Source of the DNA: an uncultured Oscillospiraceae bacterium
GTDB taxonomy: Bacteria; Bacillota; Clostridia; Oscillospirales; Oscillospiraceae
DNA: 64,000 bases
NCBI GenBank assembly: GCA_934675115.1
Contig: CAKUPH010000002.1
Span: 6,729-70,728, forward strand
Direction of reading: 5' to 3'
The position numbers and the translations under genes are program-made. Positions 49,972-60,253 of the stretch are shown here, piece by piece; positions within the stretch are counted from its first letter, which is position 1, and every line of letters starts with the position of its first letter. The notes below the pieces were generated by a model. It ran no database searches. It saw only the letters and a list, made by a program, of their open reading frames with translations, and had not been told where the DNA came from.

Positions 49972-50292
49972 TTAGAGGAGAGCCAGAGAGAAAGCGGGCA
50001 CGTAGGTGATGACCAGCAGTGCCGCGATGTACAGCAAAATGAAAGGCACCAGAGCCTTGGAGATCTTGGACATCGGCTCGCCCAGCACGCTCTGCGCCAC
50101 AAAGATGTTCATGCCGAAGGGCGGGGTGAACATGCCGATGGACAGGTTGACTGTAAACACAATGCCGAGATGCACGGGGTTGATGCCCAGCGCCTTGGCG
50201 GCGGGGAGCAGCAAGGGTGCAAGGATCAGCACGGCAGCGCCGGAGTCGAAGAAACAGCCCATAATAAGGAGCAGAATACACATTTTGGTGAT
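49972..50292 (-). pseudogene. 3' fragment of a TRAP transporter DctM gene
   Basis: About 106 codons of the DctM C-terminus (ILLLIMGCFFDSGAAVLILA, GINPVHLGIVFTVNLSIGM, TPPFGMNIFVAQ, VITYVPAFSLAL). The upstream three quarters of the gene are gone, and the frame runs without a break into a LysR effector fragment. It resembles but is clearly diverged from the intact DctM at 57304, so it is a remnant of another TRAP locus. Confidence 0.85.
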
Positions 50293-50700
50293 ATTTTCCC
50301 GTAGCTCCGGTGTCTCCTCCGCGTCAAAGGTCAGGATCTGCTCGTTTTCCAGAATGGCGGGGCTGACGATTTTATAACCTGCGTAGGGGTGGGTGTTGCT
50401 GACGATCAGCTCCACCTGGCCGGTGTAGATGCGCTTGTGCTCCAGTTCGTCATCCAGCGGAGGCTGAGACGTGTGGCTGACGACAAACGCCACGTCCAGC
50501 GAGCCGTCCATCAGGCCGCGCTGCGCCCCCTTGAAGGTGCTCTCCTTCAGCGTCAGCTCGGGTGGTGCGCTCAAAAAGCTCAACATTCAGCGTGTTTTCC
50601 AGATCCGCGATATGGCGGCTGAGCGTCGGCTGGCTGATGTACATCTGCTCCGCCGCCTTGGTGAAGCTCCGGCTGCCCGTTTTTCGCGCCGCAGCGCTTC
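50293..50700 (-). pseudogene. LysR-family regulator remnant, deleted and frameshifted
   Basis: Read on the minus strand, residues SFTKAAEQMYISQPTLSRHI and ADLENTLNVELFERTTR form a LysR HTH without a start codon. Near 50565 the frame shifts into ELTLKESTFKGAQRGLMDGS, then LDVAFVVSHTSQPPLDDE, an effector-domain piece, which fuses to the DctM fragment at about 50293. At least two deletions occurred (about 45-50 codons internal, plus the effector C-terminus). Confidence 0.85.
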
Positions 50701-50705
50701 TGGAC

Positions 50706-50722
50706 TTGGCACGGGATTTGCA
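50706..50722 (+). promoter_or_regulatory. Sigma-54 promoter of kal
   Basis: TTGGCACGGGATTTGCA: GG at 50708-50709 and GC at 50720-50721 with exactly 10 bases between, matching the -24/-12 consensus. It lies 58 bases before the kal start, at the edge of the LysR remnant. Confidence 0.85.
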
Positions 50723-50779: not shown

Positions 50780-51169
50780 ATGGAAAAAATCACATCTGAA
50801 CTGCGGGTCCGGATGTCGGCCAAGGACGCACACTACGGCGGGAATCTGGTTGACGGAGCGCATATGCTGCACCTGTTTGGAGATGTTGCGACGGAGCTTC
50901 TCATCCGCTGCGACGGCGACGAGGGTCTGTTCTGCGCCTATGACAATGTAGAATTTCTGGCCCCCGTGTACGCTGGAGATTATATCGAAGCCAGAGGCGA
51001 GATCGTCTCCGTGGGCAACACCTCCCGCAAGATGACCTTCGCCGCCTACAAGGTCATTACCACCCGCCCCGAGATCAGCGCTTCCGCCGCAGATGCGCTG
51101 GACGAGCCTGTCCTTGTCTGCCGCGCCAGCGGAACCTGCGTTGTTCCCACCGCCTGCAAAAGAAAGTGA
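50780..51169 (+). CDS. kal: 3-aminobutyryl-CoA ammonia-lyase (lysine fermentation)
   Basis: Hot-dog-fold enzyme converting 3-aminobutyryl-CoA to crotonyl-CoA plus ammonia in anaerobic lysine degradation to butyrate and acetate. [40 protein letters not shown] and [20 protein letters not shown] closely follow the Kal sequence as I know it. The length of 129 aa is normal. GAAAGGAG precedes the ATG. It is separated from kdd and kce by the regulator gene but shares a sigma-54 promoter type with them. Lysine aminomutases are not in the window. Confidence 0.92.
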
Positions 51170-51354: not shown

Positions 51355-53424
51355 GTGGACACCTATGGGATCGGGCGGTCGGTAGAGCCTGCCCAGTCTG
51401 TGCCCCAGCAGGCATGGGCCGTGGACAACAGCATGACACTGCGGGAGGATGAGCTGCTGATCGATGTGCACATCATCAACATCAATCAGATCAGCTTCAA
51501 CGATATATGGGAGCACTCCGGCGGGGACGTGGACCGGCTGTGCCGCAGGGTCATGGAGATCATCCAGCAGCGCGGCAAGCTCCATAACCCCGTGACCAAC
51601 ACCGGCGGCATGCTGTACGGTACCGTCTCCCAGATGGGGCCGAAGTACCCCAATCTCTACGGCGTCAAGCCCGGGGACGAGATCATTTCGCTGGTGTCCC
51701 TGTCGGTGACGCCGCTGACGCTGACGCGGATCACCTCCGTGGACTATGCCTCCGCCCAGCTGGAGGTGACGGGGCAGGCCATCCTCTTTGCCAGCGCGCC
51801 GGTGGTCATCCGCCCCACCGACATCCCGCTGCGCGTGGCCCTCGCGGCCATGGACATAGCCGGCAGCCCCGCCTGCACCTACCAGACGGTGTACCCCGGC
51901 CAGCAGGTTCTGGTCATGGGCGCGGGGAGCAAGCTGGGGCTGCTGTGCGGCTGCGCCGCCCGGGACAGGCTGGGGTCCAACGGTCGCCTCGTGGGCCTGA
52001 TACGGTCAAAGGAGGAGCGCCGCGCGCTGGAACAGACCGGGCTGTTCGACGACATCCGCGTTGTGGACGCCGCCAACGTGGAGGCCTTCGCCACCCGCTC
52101 TGACGACCTTCGGAACTGCTTCGACGTGGTGCTCAACTGCATCAGCAGCGACAACACGGAGCTGGTCAGCCTGATGGCCGTCAGGCCCGGCGGCGCGATC
52201 TTTTTCACCACGCTGGGCTGCGACTACAAGTTCGCCGCGCTGACGGCGGAGAGCGTGGGCAAGCAGGTGCAGATCATCCCGTACACCGGCTTTGTAGAGG
52301 GCCATGCCAACTATACGCTGGCGCTGCTGCGGCAGTTCCCGTGGCTTCAGGGCTCCATGCTGAGGAAAATTCAGAATTCCATTCACCGGCACGAGCAGCG
52401 GGCCGACAATGGGGACAGTCAGGCGCTGGAGGGGGAGGAGGACGCAGCCTGCGGCTACGTGTTCCGCAGCGAAAAAGCAAAGGCCACCCTTCGCCGCGCA
52501 CTAAAGGTTGCCCACTATCCATCCAATGTGATGATCTATGGAGAGTCCGGTACCGGCAAGGAGATCATCGCCCGGATCATCCACCAGAACAGCGAGCGAA
52601 AGATCGCGGCCATGGTAAAGATCAACTGCGCGGCCATTCCGGAAAACCTGCTGGAATCTGAGCTGTTCGGCTATGAGAGCGGGTCGTTTACCGGCGCCAG
52701 CGCCAAGGGCAAAAAGGGACTGTGGGAGATGGCGCAGAACGGAACCCTCTTCCTCGATGAGGTGGGCGAGCTGCCCCTCTTCTTTCAGGCCAAGCTGCTG
52801 CGGGCCATTCAGGAAAAGGAGATCGTCCGGGTGGGCGGCGTGACGCCCATCAAAGTCAACACCCGCATCGTGGCCGCCACCAACCGGGATTTGGCGGAGA
52901 TGGTCCGGAACGGCTCCTTCCGGGAGGATCTTTACTACCGGCTGAACGTCTACCCCATCACCGTACCGCCCCTGCGTCAGCGCCGCGCGGACATCTCACC
53001 CATGGCCGGGTATTTTGTGGAGCGTTACAATCGGGAATTCGGCCTGAAAAAGGTGCTGAGCCCCGATACGCTGGCCTTTCTGGAAAAGCAGGAATTCCCC
53101 GGCAACGTCCGGGAACTCCAGAATCTTGTCCAGCGGCTGATGATCTCCTCCGACCAGCAGGTCATCGAGGTGCGGGACGTACTGGCGGCACAAGCCTTTG
53201 ACGAGCGGGACGAGGGCAGCCCGGAAACACCGGCAGTCCGTCCGTCGCTGGAGCGCTGCTCCCTGCGGGCCATTCTCGCCCAGCAAGAAGAGAGCATCCT
53301 CCGCGCTTATCACAGCCAGTACAGCTCTACCCGGAAGCTGGCGGAAATGCTGGGCGTCAGCCAGCCCTCCATCGTGCGCAAGCTCCGGCAGTATGGGATC
53401 GCCGCTGACGGAACCGGCGAATGA
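51355..53424 (+). CDS. Sigma-54 enhancer-binding regulator with Kdd-enzyme sensor domain
   Basis: A 689-aa three-part activator. Residues 1-345 are a complete homologue of 3,5-diaminohexanoate dehydrogenase: VSLSVTPLTLTRIT, ALAAMDIAGSPA, VLVMGAGSKLGLLCG (NAD-type Rossmann) and GFVEGHANYTLALLR parallel the same blocks in Kdd two genes away. Residues 370-600 are the AAA+ domain: GESGTGKE (396), GSFTGA (443, the sigma-54 contact loop, usually GAFTGA) and TLFLDEVGEL. Residues 650-689 are a Fis-type HTH (RKLAEMLGVSQPSIVRKLRQ). GTG 51355 follows AAGGAGCGG. It probably senses a lysine-pathway intermediate or NAD state and activates kal and kdd-kce. Confidence 0.93.
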   Translation: MDTYGIGRSVEPAQSVPQQAWAVDNSMTLREDELLIDVHIININQISFNDIWEHSGGDVDRLCRRVMEIIQQRGKLHNPVTNTGGMLYGTVSQMGPKYPNLYGVKPGDEIISLVSLSVTPLTLTRITSVDYASAQLEVTGQAILFASAPVVIRPTDIPLRVALAAMDIAGSPACTYQTVYPGQQVLVMGAGSKLGLLCGCAARDRLGSNGRLVGLIRSKEERRALEQTGLFDDIRVVDAANVEAFATRSDDLRNCFDVVLNCISSDNTELVSLMAVRPGGAIFFTTLGCDYKFAALTAESVGKQVQIIPYTGFVEGHANYTLALLRQFPWLQGSMLRKIQNSIHRHEQRADNGDSQALEGEEDAACGYVFRSEKAKATLRRALKVAHYPSNVMIYGESGTGKEIIARIIHQNSERKIAAMVKINCAAIPENLLESELFGYESGSFTGASAKGKKGLWEMAQNGTLFLDEVGELPLFFQAKLLRAIQEKEIVRVGGVTPIKVNTRIVAATNRDLAEMVRNGSFREDLYYRLNVYPITVPPLRQRRADISPMAGYFVERYNREFGLKKVLSPDTLAFLEKQEFPGNVRELQNLVQRLMISSDQQVIEVRDVLAAQAFDERDEGSPETPAVRPSLERCSLRAILAQQEESILRAYHSQYSSTRKLAEMLGVSQPSIVRKLRQYGIAADGTGE

Positions 53425-53489
53425 TTCATCCTTGAATCGTAAAGCGATACGCAATTGAATCGGCGATTCATTTGCGTATCGCTTTTTTA
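53423..53489. promoter_or_regulatory. Nested palindromes: regulator terminator and putative enhancer (UAS)
   Basis: GATTCA-tcct-TGAATC (53423-53438) is followed by a 21-base inverted repeat, 53441-53461 against 53465-53485, with one mismatch and a GGC loop, whose inner part is TTGAATC-ggc-GATTCA. A TTTTTT run (about 53483-53488) makes the large one a terminator. The repeated GATTCA/TGAATC dyads sit about 70-120 bases upstream of the -24/-12 promoter of kdd, the usual place for an activator site. Confidence 0.75.
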
Positions 53490-53540
53490 CGCCCCGGGGC
53501 CGCAAAACGGCCCAATTGTGCATTTGCAGAAAAAAATAAG

Positions 53541-53557
53541 TTGGCGCGCCGCTTGCA
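53541..53557 (+). promoter_or_regulatory. Sigma-54 promoter of kdd-kce
   Basis: TTGGCGCGCCGCTTGCA: GG at 53543-53544 and GC at 53555-53556 with 10 bases between. It lies 66 bases before the kdd start. Confidence 0.8.
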
Positions 53558-53622: not shown

Positions 53623-54657
53623 ATGCGTGGGGATAAATACGGAAGCCACCGGGTGATTTCCCCCAAAGGTCTGCTGCCGCAGGCGGCAGAAAAAATCAGC
53701 AACGACCCGAGCATCTTCAGCAACGAGATCCTGATCGACGTCATCGCGCTTCAGCCGACGGCCACTGCTTTTGGCCGGATCAACCGGGAAAACGGCGGCG
53801 ACAAGGAAAAAATCGCGGCTGAGATCCTCCGGATCGTAGAGGATCGCGGTAAGTTTCAGGATCCGGTCAGCAAATCCGGCGGCATCCTGATTGGCCGCGT
53901 CAAGGAAATCGGCGAGGATCTCCGGGATAAGACCGATTTAAAGACGGGCGACAAGATCGCCACGCTGGTTTCCCTGTCGCTGACGCCGCTGAAGATTTAC
54001 GAGATCACGGACATTGACCTCGACACCGAGCAGGTCCGCTGCCGGGCAGACGCCATTCTGTTCGAAAGCGGTATCTGCACCAAGCTGCCCGAGGATCTGG
54101 GCGAGCAGTTGTCTCTGGCGTTGATGGACGTGGCTGGTGCGCCGGCGCAGGTGGCCGTCCACGCCAAGGCCGGAGACACCGTGGTGGTCATGGGCGCAGG
54201 TAAAGCTGGCCTGCTCTGTCTGGCCGAGGCCAAAAAACGGGTGTCCCCCACCGGCAAGGTGGTGTGTATGGAGTACTCCGCTGAGCAGTGTGAGCTGGTG
54301 CGAAGCCTCGGCATCGCCGACGTGGTCATTCAGGCGGACGGCAGACAGCCGCTGGCGGCCTACGAAAAATATCTGAAGGAAATGAACGGAAGGCTGGCCG
54401 ACTTCACCGTGAGCACCGTGAGCGTCACGGACACGGAACTCGCTACCATTCTGGTGACCGGTGACGAAGGCATGGTCTATTTCTTCAGCATGAGCACCGA
54501 CTTCGTCAAGGCTTCTCTGGGTGCCGAAGGCGTGGGCAAGTACGTGAAAATGCTCATCGGCAACGGCTACTATCCCGGTCATGCGGAGATCGCCTTCGAC
54601 ATCGTCCGCCGGGAAGATGCCCTGCGGAAATATTTTGTCGACCGCTACTGCAAATAA
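53623..54657 (+). CDS. kdd: L-erythro-3,5-diaminohexanoate dehydrogenase (lysine fermentation)
   Basis: NAD-dependent oxidation of 3,5-diaminohexanoate to 5-amino-3-oxohexanoate. The 344-aa protein has RGDKYGSHRVISPKGLLPQA at the start, LVSLSLTPLKIYEI, VVMGAGKAGLLCLAEAKKR (Rossmann motif) and GNGYYPGHAEIAFDIVR at the end, all as in known Kdd. AAAGGAGGG precedes ATG 53623. First gene of the sigma-54 operon; kce follows after 27 bases. The regulator upstream contains a diverged copy of this same fold. Confidence 0.94.
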   Translation: MRGDKYGSHRVISPKGLLPQAAEKISNDPSIFSNEILIDVIALQPTATAFGRINRENGGDKEKIAAEILRIVEDRGKFQDPVSKSGGILIGRVKEIGEDLRDKTDLKTGDKIATLVSLSLTPLKIYEITDIDLDTEQVRCRADAILFESGICTKLPEDLGEQLSLALMDVAGAPAQVAVHAKAGDTVVVMGAGKAGLLCLAEAKKRVSPTGKVVCMEYSAEQCELVRSLGIADVVIQADGRQPLAAYEKYLKEMNGRLADFTVSTVSVTDTELATILVTGDEGMVYFFSMSTDFVKASLGAEGVGKYVKMLIGNGYYPGHAEIAFDIVRREDALRKYFVDRYCK

Positions 54658-54684: not shown

Positions 54685-55509
54685 ATTACGGAAAAACTGA
54701 TCATTACCGCCGCCATCTGCGGCGCTGAAGTAACGAAGGAACAAAACCCCGCCGTACCGTACACAGTGGAAGAAGTGGCCCGGGAAGCCAAAGCCGCCTA
54801 TGATGCCGGGGCGTCCGTGATCCACCTTCATGTCCGCTGGGACGACGGCACTCCCACGCAGGATAAGGGCCGTTTTCAGGCGTGCACCGACGCCATTCTG
54901 GCCCTGTGCCCCGACGTGATCATTCAGCCCTCCACCGGCGGCGCCGTGGGCATGACCGATGAGGAACGGCTGCAATCCACCGAGCTGATCCCCACCCCGG
55001 AGTTTGCCACGCTGGACTGCGGCACCTGCAATTTCGGTGGGGACGAGATCTTCATCAACACCGACAATACCGTGATGAACTTTGCCCGCATCATGCAGGA
55101 GCGGAACATCAAGCCGGAGCTTGAGGTATTTGACAAGGGCATGATCGATATCGCTCTGAAGGCGGATCGGAAGGGTTTGCTGGTCCATCCGCTGCACTTC
55201 GACTTTGTGCTGGGCGTGCAGATGACCGCCACGGTGCGGGATCTGGTGTTCATGGCAGGGAGCCTGCCCGCCGGATCCACATGGACGGCCACCGGTCTCG
55301 GCAGGCACGCATGGGACATCGCTGCCGCCACCATCGTAATGGGCGGACATGTCCGGGTCGGATTTGAGGATAACCTGTATCTGGAGAAGGGCGTGCTGGC
55401 CAGAAGCAACGGTGAACTGGTAGCCAAGGCCGCTGCGCTCGCCAAGCTGCTGGGCCGCGAGATCGCCACGCCCGAAGAGGCCCGGCGCATCCTGAGCCTG
55501 AAAAAATAA
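54685..55509 (+). CDS. kce: 3-keto-5-aminohexanoate cleavage enzyme (BKACE family), apparent ATT start
   Basis: Zn-dependent enzyme that, with acetyl-CoA, cleaves 3-keto-5-aminohexanoate to 3-aminobutyryl-CoA and acetoacetate. It has EKLIITAAICGAEVTKE, GASVIHLHVRWDDGTPT (metal His), QPSTGGAVGMTDEER and LEVFDKGMIDIALK, then HPLHFDFVLGV. Homologues begin right before EKLIITAAI, and the only codon there with a proper ribosome site (AAAGGAG, 6 bases) is ATT at 54685. The next ATG/GTG (54766) would delete 27 conserved residues. Length 274 aa. Either a genuine rare ATT start or an ATG changed by mutation or sequencing error. Confidence 0.9.
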   Translation: MTEKLIITAAICGAEVTKEQNPAVPYTVEEVAREAKAAYDAGASVIHLHVRWDDGTPTQDKGRFQACTDAILALCPDVIIQPSTGGAVGMTDEERLQSTELIPTPEFATLDCGTCNFGGDEIFINTDNTVMNFARIMQERNIKPELEVFDKGMIDIALKADRKGLLVHPLHFDFVLGVQMTATVRDLVFMAGSLPAGSTWTATGLGRHAWDIAAATIVMGGHVRVGFEDNLYLEKGVLARSNGELVAKAAALAKLLGREIATPEEARRILSLKK

Positions 55510-55575: not shown

Positions 55576-56649
55576 ATGAAACTGAAAAAATGGATCGCTC
55601 TTGCTCTGACTGCGGCGATGAGTCTCTCCCTCCTGACCGCCTGCAGCCGCCCCAGCGGCAACAATTCCACCCCCTCTGACAAACCCGGCCAGAATCAGGG
55701 CACTCAAAACGAGCCCTCCGACGATGTGATCACCATCAAGATCGGCCATACCGACTCCTCCACCCGTTCCACCCACGTCTGGAGCGTCTGGATCGGCGAC
55801 TATCTGGAAGAGAAGGCTCCCGGCCGCTTCAAGGTCGAGGTCTATCCCGACGGTCAGGCCGGTGACTCCCCCGACATGGTGGCCGGCGTCAAGCTGGGCA
55901 CTCTGACCATGGAGTTCGACCTGTCCTCCGTCGTCAGCTCCGTCACCGGCGCCGCCTCCAGCTGCATCGATCTGCCCTTCCTGTATCCCACCTATGAGGC
56001 ATGGGAAAAGGGCACCTTTGAGAACGGCGGTCTGGAGCTGTTCAACGAGACCCTCGCCGACGCCGGCTATTACTGCCTCGGCATGTACTACAACGGCATG
56101 CGTCAGGTCATCAGCCGCAACCGCTGCTATCACAACGCCGACGACCTGAAGGGCCAGAAGGTCCGCATCGCTCAGGACGAGCTGAACATCGAGATGTGGA
56201 AGGCCATGGGCGGCAACCCCACTCCCATGTCCTGGGGCGAGGTCATCACCTCCCTGTCCACCGGCGCCATCGACGCTCTGGATCACAGTCTGGGCGTGTT
56301 CAACGACTTCTCCCTCCATGAGATCGCTCCCTACGTGACCATCACCAACCACGCCAGCTCCCCCTTCCCCATCATCTGCTCCCTCGACTGGTTCAACAGC
56401 CTGTCCGCCGACGATCAGGCTCTGATCCAGGAGGCCGTCTCCAAGGCCTGCAAGCAGCAGCGCGACGAAGAACGCGCCAACGAGATGGATTACATCCAGC
56501 GCTTCAAGGATGAGGGCGCCACCGTCGAAGAGCTCACCGACGACGAGGTCGCCGCGTTCATGGAAGCCGTCCAGCCCGTGTACGATATGTGGCGCGAAAA
56601 GGTCGGCGACGATATGATGGATCGCTGGCTGGCTACTGTTCCCCAGTAA
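55576..56649 (+). CDS. dctP: TRAP transporter substrate-binding lipoprotein DctP
   Basis: Extracellular binder of a TRAP carrier, 357 aa. The signal peptide ends in lipobox LTAC (Cys about residue 17), then a Ser/Asn/Pro linker and the DctP fold (IKIGHTDSSTRSTHV, GRFKVEVYPDGQAGD, LKGQKVRIAQDELN, DALDHSLGVFNDF). It follows kce by 66 bases with AAAGGAG and no promoter in between, so it is probably part of the kdd operon. A link to lysine or a pathway acid is inferred from position only. Confidence 0.9.
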   Translation: MKLKKWIALALTAAMSLSLLTACSRPSGNNSTPSDKPGQNQGTQNEPSDDVITIKIGHTDSSTRSTHVWSVWIGDYLEEKAPGRFKVEVYPDGQAGDSPDMVAGVKLGTLTMEFDLSSVVSSVTGAASSCIDLPFLYPTYEAWEKGTFENGGLELFNETLADAGYYCLGMYYNGMRQVISRNRCYHNADDLKGQKVRIAQDELNIEMWKAMGGNPTPMSWGEVITSLSTGAIDALDHSLGVFNDFSLHEIAPYVTITNHASSPFPIICSLDWFNSLSADDQALIQEAVSKACKQQRDEERANEMDYIQRFKDEGATVEELTDDEVAAFMEAVQPVYDMWREKVGDDMMDRWLATVPQ

Positions 56650-56744: not shown

Positions 56745-56783
56745 ATGGATGTATTGAATCCAATACATCGCTTCTGCTTATGA
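56745..56783 (+). CDS. 12-codon leader ORF coupled to dctQ, with internal hairpin
   Basis: A consensus AAAGGAGGG (56735-56743) lies directly before ATG 56745, which opens MDVLNPIHRFCL and stops at TGA 56781-56783, overlapping the dctQ ATG (ATGA). A perfect 9-bp hairpin GATGTATTG-AATC-CAATACATC (56748-56769) lies within it. DctQ itself has no other ribosome site. Either a leader peptide that couples translation, or a hairpin that brings the ribosome site near the dctQ start. Confidence 0.5.
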   Translation: MDVLNPIHRFCL

Positions 56784-57307
56784 AAGGTAAAAAGCGCGTC
56801 TTCGACATCCTGAACCATATAGAGGAGGCTATCCTCGTTTTCCTGTTCGCAGTGATGGTCATCATTATTTTTATTCAGGTCATCATGCGCAAGGCGAACC
56901 ATTCCCTGTACTGGTCGGAGGAGCTTGGCAAGTTCCTGTTTGTCTGGATCTCCTGGCTGGGCATCTCCATTGGCCAGCGCAAGGGCGAGCATATCAAAAT
57001 CACCATGCTGACCGACCGTCTTCCCTTCAAGACGGCTCAGGTGTTTAATATTCTGTCCGATCTGGTGGTTATGGGCATCTGCCTTGTCACGCTGTACTAC
57101 GGCGTCACGCTGGTCTTCTCTCAGTGGACCTCCCCCTACGCCGGCATCAAGATCAGCACCTCTTGGGGCTATCTGGCCGTTGTGGTGGGCTGCGGCCTGA
57201 TGACCATCCGCTGCGTCGCCAGCATCGTCACCTCCGCGAAGCTTCTCGCCCACGGCAAGCCTGCAGAATCCGTTGAACAGACTGAGGAAGGGGGCGCTCA
57301 GGAATGA
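56780..57307 (+). CDS. dctQ: TRAP transporter small permease DctQ
   Basis: A 175-aa membrane protein with four helices (about residues 14-38, 53-70, 91-113, 131-155), the DctQ layout, with SLYWSEELGKFLFVWISWLG as the family signature. Its stop overlaps the dctM start by 4 bases. Start ATG 56780 agrees with homologues although its ribosome site is displaced behind the leader ORF. Confidence 0.9.
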   Translation: MKGKKRVFDILNHIEEAILVFLFAVMVIIIFIQVIMRKANHSLYWSEELGKFLFVWISWLGISIGQRKGEHIKITMLTDRLPFKTAQVFNILSDLVVMGICLVTLYYGVTLVFSQWTSPYAGIKISTSWGYLAVVVGCGLMTIRCVASIVTSAKLLAHGKPAESVEQTEEGGAQE

Positions 57308-58611
57308 ACTCCGCACTGATCGTACTGTTTCTGGTACTGATCATCATGCTGATGATCGGCGTACCCGTCGGCTTCGCCATCGGCGGCGCAACCATGATCT
57401 CCATGTTCTACTGCTCTGACCTGAACATGGTCGTCAACGCCCAGTACTGCTATTCCGGCATTTTCTCCTTCACCGTCATGGCCATCCCCTTCTTCATGCT
57501 GGCCGGCTCCGTCATCTCCACCGGCGGCATCGCCAAACGCATCGTGGAATTCGCCTCCGCACTGATCGACTTCGTCACCGGCGCGCTGGGCTGCGTGTCC
57601 ATGCTGGCCTGCATGTTCTTCGGCGCCCTGTCCGGCTCCGGTATGGCCACCACCGCCGCCATCGGCGGCATGATGATCCCCGAAATGAAAAAGCGCGGCT
57701 ACGACCCCTCCTATGCCGCCACTCTGGTGTGCTTCGGCGGCACCGTCGGTCCCATCATTCCGCCCTCCCTGTCCTTCGTGCTCTACGGTGCCACCACCAA
57801 GACCTCCGTGCCCGACCTGTTCAAGGCCGGCATCATCCCCGGCATTATGATCGGTCTGACCTTCTTGGTGGTAAACGTCATTATCTGCAAGCGCCGCGGC
57901 ATCGACGTGCGGGAGAAAAGCGACCAGAAGATCCCCCTGAAGGAGTTCTGGGGCAAGCGCCTGCGCCGTCTGGGCCGGGCCACCAAGGACGGCTTCTGGG
58001 CTCTGCTGTCCCCGGTCATCATTCTCGGCGGTATCTACTCCGGCATCTTTACGCCCACTGAGGCCGCCGCCGTCTCCGTGGTGTACTCCGTCATCGTGTC
58101 CATGTTCGTCTACAAGGAGATGACCTGGAAGAGCCTGTACGAGACGCTGGTCGGTTCCGCCGTCCTCAACGGCGTCACCTCCTTCCTGCTGGGCTACTCC
58201 ACGGTGTTCTCCACCTTCATGACCTTCGAGCAGGTCCCGCAGGGCATCACCCGGTTCTTGGCCAACGTGTCCGACAACCCCTTGGTCGTCCTGCTGGTCA
58301 TCAACCTGATCCTGCTGGTCATTGGCTGCTTCCTTGACACCGTGCCCGCCATCATCATCATGGCTCCCATGCTGCTGCCCACCCTGAAGGCCTTCGGTAT
58401 CAACCCCATCCACTTCGGCGTGGTCATGGCGGTGAATCTGGCCTTCGGCCTGTGCACGCCGCCTTACGGCTGCAATCTCTTCGTGGGCGCCGCCGTTGCG
58501 AAGATCAAGATGGAAAGCATGTTCAAGTGGATCGTGCCGTTCTTCTTGGTGTCCGTCGTCCTGCTGATGATCCTGACCTACGTCCCCGCGCTGTCCCTCG
58601 CATTCGTGTGA
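57304..58611 (+). CDS. dctM: TRAP transporter large permease DctM
   Basis: A 435-aa protein with about 12-13 helices. It has AIPFFMLAGSVISTGGIAKR, FFGALSGSGMATTAAIG and GGTVGPIIPPSLSFVLYG (the re-entrant loop motif), and TPPYGCNLFVGAAVAKIK near the end. It completes DctPQM, a Na+-driven importer of organic acids, sometimes amino acids. A diverged C-terminal fragment of another DctM survives at 49972. Confidence 0.95.
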   Translation: MNSALIVLFLVLIIMLMIGVPVGFAIGGATMISMFYCSDLNMVVNAQYCYSGIFSFTVMAIPFFMLAGSVISTGGIAKRIVEFASALIDFVTGALGCVSMLACMFFGALSGSGMATTAAIGGMMIPEMKKRGYDPSYAATLVCFGGTVGPIIPPSLSFVLYGATTKTSVPDLFKAGIIPGIMIGLTFLVVNVIICKRRGIDVREKSDQKIPLKEFWGKRLRRLGRATKDGFWALLSPVIILGGIYSGIFTPTEAAAVSVVYSVIVSMFVYKEMTWKSLYETLVGSAVLNGVTSFLLGYSTVFSTFMTFEQVPQGITRFLANVSDNPLVVLLVINLILLVIGCFLDTVPAIIIMAPMLLPTLKAFGINPIHFGVVMAVNLAFGLCTPPYGCNLFVGAAVAKIKMESMFKWIVPFFLVSVVLLMILTYVPALSLAFV

Positions 58612-58897: not shown

Positions 58898-60253
58898 TTA
58901 CTCCATCACGTCGTACCGCCGCATCAGCTCAATACGCTCCTTGGCCAGCTTGATGGAGCCAGAAGCGCTGTTGTCTGCGCCGGACTGCTTTTCGCTGGCG
59001 TAGTGCGCGATGCGCTGTACCCACGCGATTGGCAGCATATACGGACGCTTTTTCAGATATGGATACCGGCGCTCCAGATACTCCCGCTTGGGGAACACCG
59101 TGCTAAGTACGCTGCTCTTCTCGCCAGTGCGGTTGGCCTTGACGGCGTTCAGCGTCACGGTGGAGGAGTGGAGCCGGGTGTAGTCGTTGGAGCCGTACAC
59201 GCTGCCGCAGAGGGTGGCGTGCAGCAACGGCTCCACGCCGAGGGACGCATCCCACGGCGCGGGCAGGTCGAATTTGATGCCAAGATAGTCTCTGGCGATG
59301 CGGAACGCTGCCGCGGCAAATGTCGCCGCGTGAACACTGGCGCACTGGTCGTATAGGCGCTGCCAGTCGATTTCATCGTGGTACGCCCGCGCCCACAGGC
59401 CGATGTCGCAGAATTGCCGCAGGCCGATGCCGCTGCGCACAAAGTGCTTGTAGACATGCAGGTGGGACTGCTTGAAGAACACGTGGTCCCGCCCCGCGTC
59501 GCACATGCGGTTGTACCCATCCACGGCGGCGGTCAGGCCGTCCAGCCGTATGCCGGTCTTTTCGCACAGCTCCTCCAGCGAATCGGCGGCATAGACATAC
59601 GGGTAGTCCATATCCTGCGCGGCCTGAACGATCTTGTCCAGATCCAGCTCCGGCGCGGGCATTCCCGGGGGCGAGTCCAGCTTCAGTTCCCCAGTGTGAT
59701 ATAGCTCCGCGATATTGCTGGATGTAATCATAAACGCGGTGCCGCCGGGTTGGCGGTGAATGGCGTTGGCCATGTAATAACGGTCGGGATATGCCTCGTT
59801 CATAAAGCGCTCGCCCCGGAGGTTGACCAGCAGGTTCGGGTCGGACAGGATCTCCCAGCCCTCCTTTGTGCCCGCGGGGCCGCAGTAGATGGGCATGCCC
59901 TTGTAGGCATCCACCATCATTTCGCCCTTTGCCGCGCCCACGTCCCACGCCATCTGCATGCCGTCGCCGCAGATATTGGGCCGCTGGCGGGAGAAGAAGA
60001 TGTTGCCGTTGTTCTCATAGGTGGTGGTTTCCCGGATGAGCTTCGGGCTGCCCATGAAGCCGCCGGTGCCGATGACCACGGCCTTTGCTTCTATCTCGAT
60101 GCTGTTTCCTGCCTCGTCCTCGGCGATCAGGCCGGTGATCCTGCCGTCCTGCTTGATGAGCTTTTTCGCCGGGGTGTTGAAGTGGAAGTCCACAAGGCCT
60201 GTGTCTATGGCGCGGGTATACAGCAGGGTGGAATATCTGGTGCCCTGCGCCAA
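58898..60253 (-). pseudogene. Chimeric frame: flavoprotein middle fused to nucleotidyltransferase-like C-terminus
   Basis: 451 codons without a convincing start (TTG at the breakpoint, no ribosome site). The first 255 residues are the middle of a fumarate-reductase/urocanate-reductase-type FAD protein (VVIGTGGFMGSPKLI, RGERFMNEAYPDRYYMA); the N-terminal FAD motif is missing. Near 59490 it turns into the C-terminal part of an NTP_transf_5-like protein (RSGIGLRQFCDIGLW, DYLGIKF, RPYMLPIAWVQRI), about 197 residues. The flavoprotein's own C-terminus lies just to the right on the opposite strand. Probably not functional. Confidence 0.8.

Follow-up and report, generated by a model that had tools for sequence, protein, structure and literature searches.

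A complete fold of L-erythro-3,5-diaminohexanoate dehydrogenase (Kdd) is joined to a sigma-54 AAA+ domain and a helix-turn-helix (HTH) domain in a single protein of the window (the whole stretch of DNA analysed here, 64 kb, from a gut-type anaerobe), and our analysis confirmed that this fusion is real. The fusion protein very probably works as a one-component sigma-54 activator: the Kdd fold would act as a small-molecule detector, and the activator would switch the promoters of kal and kdd-kce-dctPQM. The idea of an enzyme recruited as a sensor is well supported: the domain order, the fold, the gene neighbourhood, the promoter sites and, in a related clade, an operator motif were all read directly from the data.

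Domain architecture and occurrence of the fusion

The fusion gene forms a single open frame with a GTG start that codes for 689 amino acids, with the following parts.

51355..53424, + strand: fusion regulator, Kdd-like sensor with sigma-54 AAA+ domain and HTH (ORF, Pfam, NCBIfam, PDB, AlphaFold2)
51355..52344, + strand: Kdd-like sensor domain, residues 1-330 (alignment to Kdd, PDB matches, model)
52339..52407, + strand: predicted long helix, residues 329-351, linking sensor and AAA+ domain (AlphaFold2 model)
52462..52959, + strand: AAA+ sigma-54 activation domain, residues 370-535 (PF00158, Sigma54_activat, E=1.1e-67)
52681..52698, + strand: GSFTGA sigma-54 contact motif, residues 443-448 (motif reading)
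53260..53400, + strand: HTH_50 DNA-binding domain, residues 636-682 (PF18024, E=5.7e-13)

A first-pass annotation of this DNA had proposed an N-terminal Kdd homologue fused to AAA+ and Fis-HTH domains, with the enzyme fold in the place of the sensor. Both points stand: Kdd structures are the best matches to the N-terminal half, PF00158 and PF18024 lie in the same frame, and the PDB search and the structural model place the enzyme fold in the sensor position. Three of 40 PDB matches fall on the N-terminal half and all are 3,5-diaminohexanoate dehydrogenase (7dl3, 7dl0 and 7dl1; E 4e-54 to 2.5e-52), the remaining 37 falling on the AAA+ or HTH part. For the AlphaFold2 model (mean pLDDT 81, pTM 0.51; pLDDT below 50 at residues 348-362) the seven top PDB matches are all crystal structures of Kdd, with a TM to target of 0.80-0.86, and by PDB search and model comparison the Kdd fold extends across the full length of the N-terminal half. 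Pairwise alignment of residues 2-327 with the neighbouring Kdd gave 32% identity (182 bits, E=3e-56). With the NCBIfam KDD model (NF052381) the fusion scored 181.1 bits, below the curated cut-off of 200, and the true kdd 220.7. A better match to generic alcohol dehydrogenases had been named beforehand as evidence against a Kdd origin; such a relative was ruled out by NCBIfam, Pfam, the PDB search and structure comparison. Pfam found no other sensor domain in the window fusion, and PAS gave no match at E 0.001.

The C-terminal half has the features of sigma-54 enhancer-binding proteins, with Walker motifs and a GAFTGA-type loop in the AAA+ domain (GESGTGKE, GSFTGA, FLDE and FREDLYYRLNV), a lid at residues 541-613 (Pfam) and a C-terminal HTH (PF18024). 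GSFTGA is given as a variant that still permits activation in the accessible part of PMC6615313. The protein joins an enzyme fold to a DNA-binding part, as do regulators with enzyme-derived sensors.

A frameshift or assembly artefact was ruled out. A protein database search with residues 1-345, which scored the 7994 candidates with most shared words, returned 35 proteins, and because 33 of them carry PF26370 together with PF00158 the fusion is not a product of assembly; the other two have 378 and 404 aa. A search of viral contigs gave no match.

Most genomes with a Kdd homologue are without the fusion, since 6 genomes with a fusion (frame of 686-739 aa) stand against 27 with a match among 341 genomes across the class of Flavonifractor plautii; the fusion is uncommon across the class as a whole and common in certain lineages. 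A single order, sampled with 198 genomes, gave matches in 128; in at least 27 the top match lay in a frame of 688 aa or longer. A one-genome-per-species scan gave 406 relatives, and fusions make up ten of the best 80; kdd adjoins six of the ten, and one of the ten (L004) ends early at 566 aa. A search of the ten genomes concerned yielded 34 matches; 19 lie in frames 573-739 aa long. The single fusion of F. plautii (G001) adjoins a second, divergent kdd, kce and a TRAP transporter; the kam-kdd-kce set of the same genome (L090) has no fusion within the 14 kb read. In other Bacillota, sigma-54 activators of 458-522 aa that have no Kdd portion were also seen near kdd (L009, L013, L019, L025, L052, L091 and others).

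The comparison set used below holds 65 fusion genes with their neighbourhoods, the window's included, and was collected by similarity, so that its counts do not amount to an unbiased survey. L168 and L169 were omitted as repeats of L010 and L023, and L143 with its split fusion frame was omitted as well. L180 and L181 stand outside all trees and tallies; the fusion of L181 lies in a kdd-kal-kce-dctPQM set, and a canonical kdd is found some 2 kb away from that of L180.

Gene neighbourhoods, promoters and clades

In the window the fusion gene lies between kal and a kdd that starts 198 bp downstream of it, in agreement with the roughly 200 bp reported at first pass.

50706..50722, + strand: sigma-54 -24/-12 site TTGGCACGGGATTTGCA, 57 bp before kal (pattern search)
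50780..51169, + strand: kal, 3-aminobutyryl-CoA ammonia lyase (NCBIfam NF052388, 197.2 bits, cut-off 160)
53422..53439, + strand: possible operator TGATTCATCCTTGAATCG, 7/8 scored positions, starting at the fusion stop codon; clade A sites of this kind are hardly above background
53438..53491, + strand: strong hairpin followed by a T-run (folding of 53425-53500: -34.4 kcal/mol, z -5.8)
53541..53557, + strand: sigma-54 -24/-12 site TTGGCGCGCCGCTTGCA, 65 bp before kdd (pattern search)
53623..54657, + strand: kdd, divergent clade of 3,5-diaminohexanoate dehydrogenase (NF052381, 220.7 bits, cut-off 200; trees)
54685..55509, + strand: kce (NF052387, 408.8 bits, cut-off 382)
55576..56649, + strand: dctP, TRAP solute-binding protein (PF03480)
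56780..57307, + strand: dctQ, TRAP small permease (named from position and matches in relatives)
57304..58611, + strand: dctM, TRAP large permease (named from position and matches in relatives)

The hairpin is likely the terminator of the fusion gene and possibly also an operator. The kce frame at 54685 is open from an ATT codon after AAAGGAG, with a CTG two codons earlier; ATG, GTG or TTG is absent at the conserved kce start, possibly reflecting an unusual start codon or an error in the sequence. Two further observations concern the minus strand. At 49972-50722 we found remnants of a LysR-type regulator, its HTH and effector segments out of frame with each other, which merge into the C-terminal region of a DctM permease and whose upstream end is overlain by the kal sigma-54 site. 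At 58898-60253 an odd junction occurs in an FAD-binding frame, whose C-terminal part gives a match to the end of an NTP_transf_5 domain.

The pattern used for the sigma-54 search, in which R at one position was chosen after the kdd site had already been seen, has exactly two zero-mismatch sites in the 64-kb window against 0.02 expected, one before kal and one before kdd; with one mismatch allowed two sites were seen against 0.88 expected.

A tree of the 65 fusions (quick tree, unrooted, with SH-aLRT support) gave clade A (n=10, containing the window), clade B (n=30), clade C (n=23) and two unplaced Clostridium rows. In the quick tree a branch with 100% support sets apart all 27 sampled Kdd enzymes, and in an earlier tree of 119 rows (P0002, P0003 and P0020 omitted) such a branch likewise sets apart the 41 fusion sensors; both trees came with long-branch warnings and their finer placement is unsure. 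As the sensor domains are split from all sampled Kdds by a 100% branch, the neighbouring kdd is not their direct parent, contrary to what the first-pass annotation had assumed, and a recent duplication of that gene as origin of the sensor was ruled out by the tree. The sensor is rather an old branch of the Kdd family than a fresh copy of the adjacent kdd. The kdds that adjoin clade A fusions form a clade of their own in the 119-row tree (7/7 sampled).

Proximity to pathway genes, which had been predicted, was found in two of the clades: kdd or kamA lies within 6 kb of the fusion in 8/10 loci of clade A and 30/30 of clade B, with 0/23 in clade C and 0/2 among the unplaced. A fusion occurring mostly away from lysine genes would have counted against the original interpretation, and the total of 38/65 beside kdd or kamA shows that this is not the case, clade C contributing none. 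Within the same distance clade B has kamA in 28/30 loci and kdd in the other two, both genes in 24/30 and kal in 25/30 (NCBIfam identified the kam genes of L081, and similarity those of other loci), and its typical order is a divergent kal, the fusion, one or two kdd, kamA-E and a CoA-transferase. The two exceptions, L150 and L152, have kdd, and no kam gene was found in them. Tandem fusion pairs directly precede kamA and CoA-transferase genes without kdd in L087 (2258-6420) and L142 (7074-11312). Two tandem kdd follow the clade B fusion in L145, L146, L148, L149, L153, L154, L156 and L166, and where both copies are in the tree (L145, L153, L166) they split into two groups.

Clade A has a divergent kdd in 8/10 loci, a TRAP gene in 8/10, kce in 6/10 and kal in 4/10, all within 6 kb, and kamA, B, C, D and E gave no tblastn match in the 64-kb window. 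The circuit for lysine-to-butyrate fermentation first suggested for the window thus fits clade B with its kam operon and not in the window's own clade A; the lysine circuit proper is that of clade B, and the window represents a parallel branch. Clade C has neither kdd (0/23) nor kamA (0/23), and a kce match was found in L129 alone, 5.5 kb away. The gene behind the adjacent sigma-54 site was named in 14/22 clade C loci, by Pfam in six of the 14 and by sequence likeness in the others, giving nine of the PF03553 antiporter type, three of the EamA type and two CoA-transferases. The fusion adjoins an antiporter-like gene preceded by a sigma-54 site in L083, L126, L128, L129, L132, L134, L136, L139 and L140; PF03553 was confirmed in L083, L126, L132 and L139, the other antiporter-like genes being named by likeness.

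For all fusions we scored -24/-12 sites in the flanks (660 bp on the downstream side, 510 bp on the upstream side) with our own weights on the consensus for such promoters and a threshold of 0.87 or more. The kamA promoter of Bacillus thuringiensis, as printed in the accessible text of PMC4428206, has a form equal to the sites so scored. Sites were present in 9/10 fusions of clade A, 18/30 of clade B, 16/23 of clade C and 1/2 of the unplaced, leaving 1/10, 12/30 and 7/23 in clades A, B and C without a site at this threshold. Matched-length controls elsewhere in the same loci had 25/1240, and 410-bp controls gave 4/134 upstream of inner operon genes and 3/760 in shuffled pieces. As expected of sigma-54 enhancer-binding proteins, sigma-54 sites stand at the likely target genes, both in the fusion flanks and before kal and kdd of the window. 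The gene rpoN was present in 35/35 fusion genomes tested.

The GAFTGA loop is absent from 9/30 clade B proteins. None of these nine has a sigma-54 site (0/9; kdd, kal and fusion flanks), versus 18/21 of the proteins with the loop (fusion flanks); Fisher's p of 1.5e-5 overstates the independence of these cases, since the loop motif needs three changes on the tree, at least two of them forced by starred branches. Of the three loop-bearing exceptions, two come first in a tandem pair in which the partner has a site, and the third, L152, has a sigma-54 site before its more distant kdd. A candidate operator, TGAAC-N8-GTTCA (one mismatch allowed), was derived from the loop-bearing members, the nine loopless proteins standing outside the discovery set, and lies near the fusion in 15/21 loci with the loop and in 9/9 without. 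In clade B loci 41/77 matches to it fall in the flanks, which make up 24,926 of 470,666 bases, and shuffles gave 20; a scan of spacers gave 51 matches for spacer 8 versus 7-26 for the others. In clade B, then, loop and promoters vanish together while operator and sensor persist, a natural experiment in how an activator changes its mechanism. TyrR provides a comparison for a regulator that left sigma-54 behind. A search for a common operator in clades A and C gave nothing clearly above background, clade A having nine operator-like sites in the flanks (1.07 per kb versus 0.69 in whole loci) with nine matches at spacer 8 and eight at spacer 10.

Sensor residues, proposed mechanism and alternatives

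Residues of the sensors were compared with those of 111 canonical Kdds. Among near-invariant Kdd positions 42/83 are unchanged in more than 90% of 44 fusions, so that half have changed. The Kdd-invariant R12, E38, G84, K85 and E280 are kept in 98-100% of sensors in all three clades, and E310, described in the available part of a review (PMC9902596) as bonding to the amide of the cofactor, in 98% of clade A, 100% of clade B and 78% of clade C. The cofactor loop is mostly kept in clade A (G199 98%, G202 86%, G205 93%), which also keeps H328 (95%), and lost in clade B, where positions 202 and 203 are mostly Leu or Met and 205 is mostly Asn; the glycine loop is lost in clade C as well. At G321, conserved in at least 99% of Kdd enzymes, 98% of clade A sensors have Tyr and most clade B sensors Ala; N322 (99% in the canonical Kdds) is replaced in clade A, F302 is Tyr in 77% of clade A, and both V178 to Glu and F302 to Tyr are found in most sensors of clades A, B and C. 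The window fusion has Ser202, Ile178, Tyr302, Tyr321 and Thr322, thus keeping none of the near-invariant G321, N322 and F302. D49 is present in 100% of the canonical Kdds; at this position 100% of clade B and C sensors have E, whereas 98% of those of clade A have N. The nine Kdds in the divergent clade depart from otherwise invariant residues (N47Q, D49T, A51T, S52A); the acid at position 49 is lost in clade A sensors and divergent Kdds alike, and the specificities of sensor and enzyme may have shifted in step.

From these replacements we infer that clade B sensors would bind amine or ketone independently of NAD(H), and that clade A would sense and handle a related but different compound; catalysis has probably been lost in the sensors. 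NAD or NADH, proposed earlier as a possible ligand, fits clade B poorly because its sensors are without the glycine-rich NAD motif. The earlier interpretation is supported in part, and its core holds up.

In the mechanism we propose, a pathway metabolite would bind the old active-site cleft of the Kdd-like sensor, and the bound fold would release the AAA+ ring or help its assembly. The ring would then use ATP and the GSFTGA loop to open the sigma-54 promoters before kal and kdd-kce-dctPQM, and in the window the uptake and breakdown of the sensed compound would be switched on. In clade B the equivalent device would drive kal and the kdd-kamABCDE operon for lysine fermentation. Ligand binding, the direction of the response and activation of the targets are the parts of this scheme that are deduced. 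Our guess is that the ligand is the pair 3,5-diaminohexanoate / 3-keto-5-aminohexanoate in clade B and a related compound in clade A.

PutA and BirA are examples of enzyme and regulator in one protein, and the N-terminal domain might likewise still catalyse the Kdd reaction and report turnover or the level of NADH. The cofactor loop retained for the most part in clade A, with E310 at 98% and H328 at 95%, would suit such a bifunctional trigger enzyme, but G321, N322 and F302 are changed in that clade, clade B has lost the loop, and the window protein itself carries Ser202, Ile178, Tyr302, Tyr321 and Thr322, all of which makes it unlikely. The adjacency of fusion and kdd in most of clades A and B, together with the separate clade formed by the kdds beside clade A fusions (7/7 sampled), could also indicate that the Kdd-like domain co-assembles with Kdd subunits, the regulator then reading the amount or state of the enzyme instead of a small molecule. 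Yet the partners in the window share only about 32% identity and clade C fusions have no adjacent kdd, and we hold this docking to be very unlikely.

Finally the domain might be passive and serve oligomerisation or folding, with the signal sensed elsewhere, a view to which the change of half of the near-invariant positions and the putative status of the ligand lend themselves. It is at odds with the 42/83 positions that are the same in more than 90% of 44 fusions, with clade-specific changes at others and with the absence of any other sensor domain from the Pfam matches of the window protein, and it appears the most improbable of the alternatives.

Returning to the Kdd fold as a detector, a joint reading on which we are evenly divided would be that of a class of metabolite sensors derived from this fold in sigma-54 activators, with branches, each adapted to a ligand of its own, for lysine fermentation (B), for import and breakdown of a related compound via a second Kdd-Kce-Kal set (A) and for transporters (C), where clade B would have left sigma-54 two or three times and kept sensor and operator. 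A single origin of the class is permitted by the unrooted trees.

Relation to known systems and significance

Parts of this scheme have been published, namely sigma-54 control of a lysine aminomutase gene (KamR) and sensors derived from enzymes (BzdR, MocR). KamR of B. thuringiensis is described in the accessible text of PMC4428206 as a PAS-type sigma-54 activator of kamA, and lysine 2,3-aminomutase is listed among sigma-54 genes of Bacilli in that of PMC12316311. The likeness to KamR lies in a sigma-54 activator beside the lysine 2,3-aminomutase gene that it drives and in the same promoter type (PMC4428206, in part); the difference is that KamR is reported to have a PAS domain where the fusion has a Kdd enzyme fold. 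Moreover kamA adjoins KamR, whereas the window cluster is without kamA and clade B has it within 6 kb in 28/30 loci. The effector domain of BzdR is shikimate-kinase-like (PMC3602430, in part) and the sensor of MocR regulators aminotransferase-like (PMC5320631, in part). As in the fusion an enzyme fold is the effector-binding domain of these regulators, although the enzyme family is other than Kdd. To our knowledge BzdR and MocR have no AAA+ domain and do not work with sigma-54.

Enhancer-binding proteins of Clostridiales (OrdR, PrdR, CrbR and others) share with the fusion the order of N-terminal sensor, AAA+ domain and HTH and control operons of amino-acid fermentation (PMC6615313, in part). 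The sensors named for 490 such activators in the accessible part of that survey include PAS, GAF, HPr, PrpR_N, ACT, CBS, Fer4, Fe_hyd, FeS, V4R and RR, but a dehydrogenase fold is absent from them; of the 39 groups none is assigned a lysine target there and eight are of unknown function. With Kdd itself (PDB 7dl0, 7dl1, 7dl3, 7dl7) the N-terminal half of the fusion shares its entire fold, but several otherwise invariant positions are changed and the fold is joined to a transcription activator. In our searches of the literature open without subscription no title listed named a fusion of Kdd with a sigma-54 activator and no paper joining the pathway intermediate with sigma 54 was returned, and the word 'regulator' is absent from the available portions of PMC4697335 and PMC13134046, which deal with the fermentation of lysine by gut commensals.

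Should binding tests support it, the fusion would be a replicated case of a catabolic enzyme turned into the sensor of its own pathway in a sigma-54 system. The proposed mechanism, if true, would account for the switching-on of lysine-to-butyrate fermentation in many anaerobes and would offer ready-made biosensors for diamino acids.
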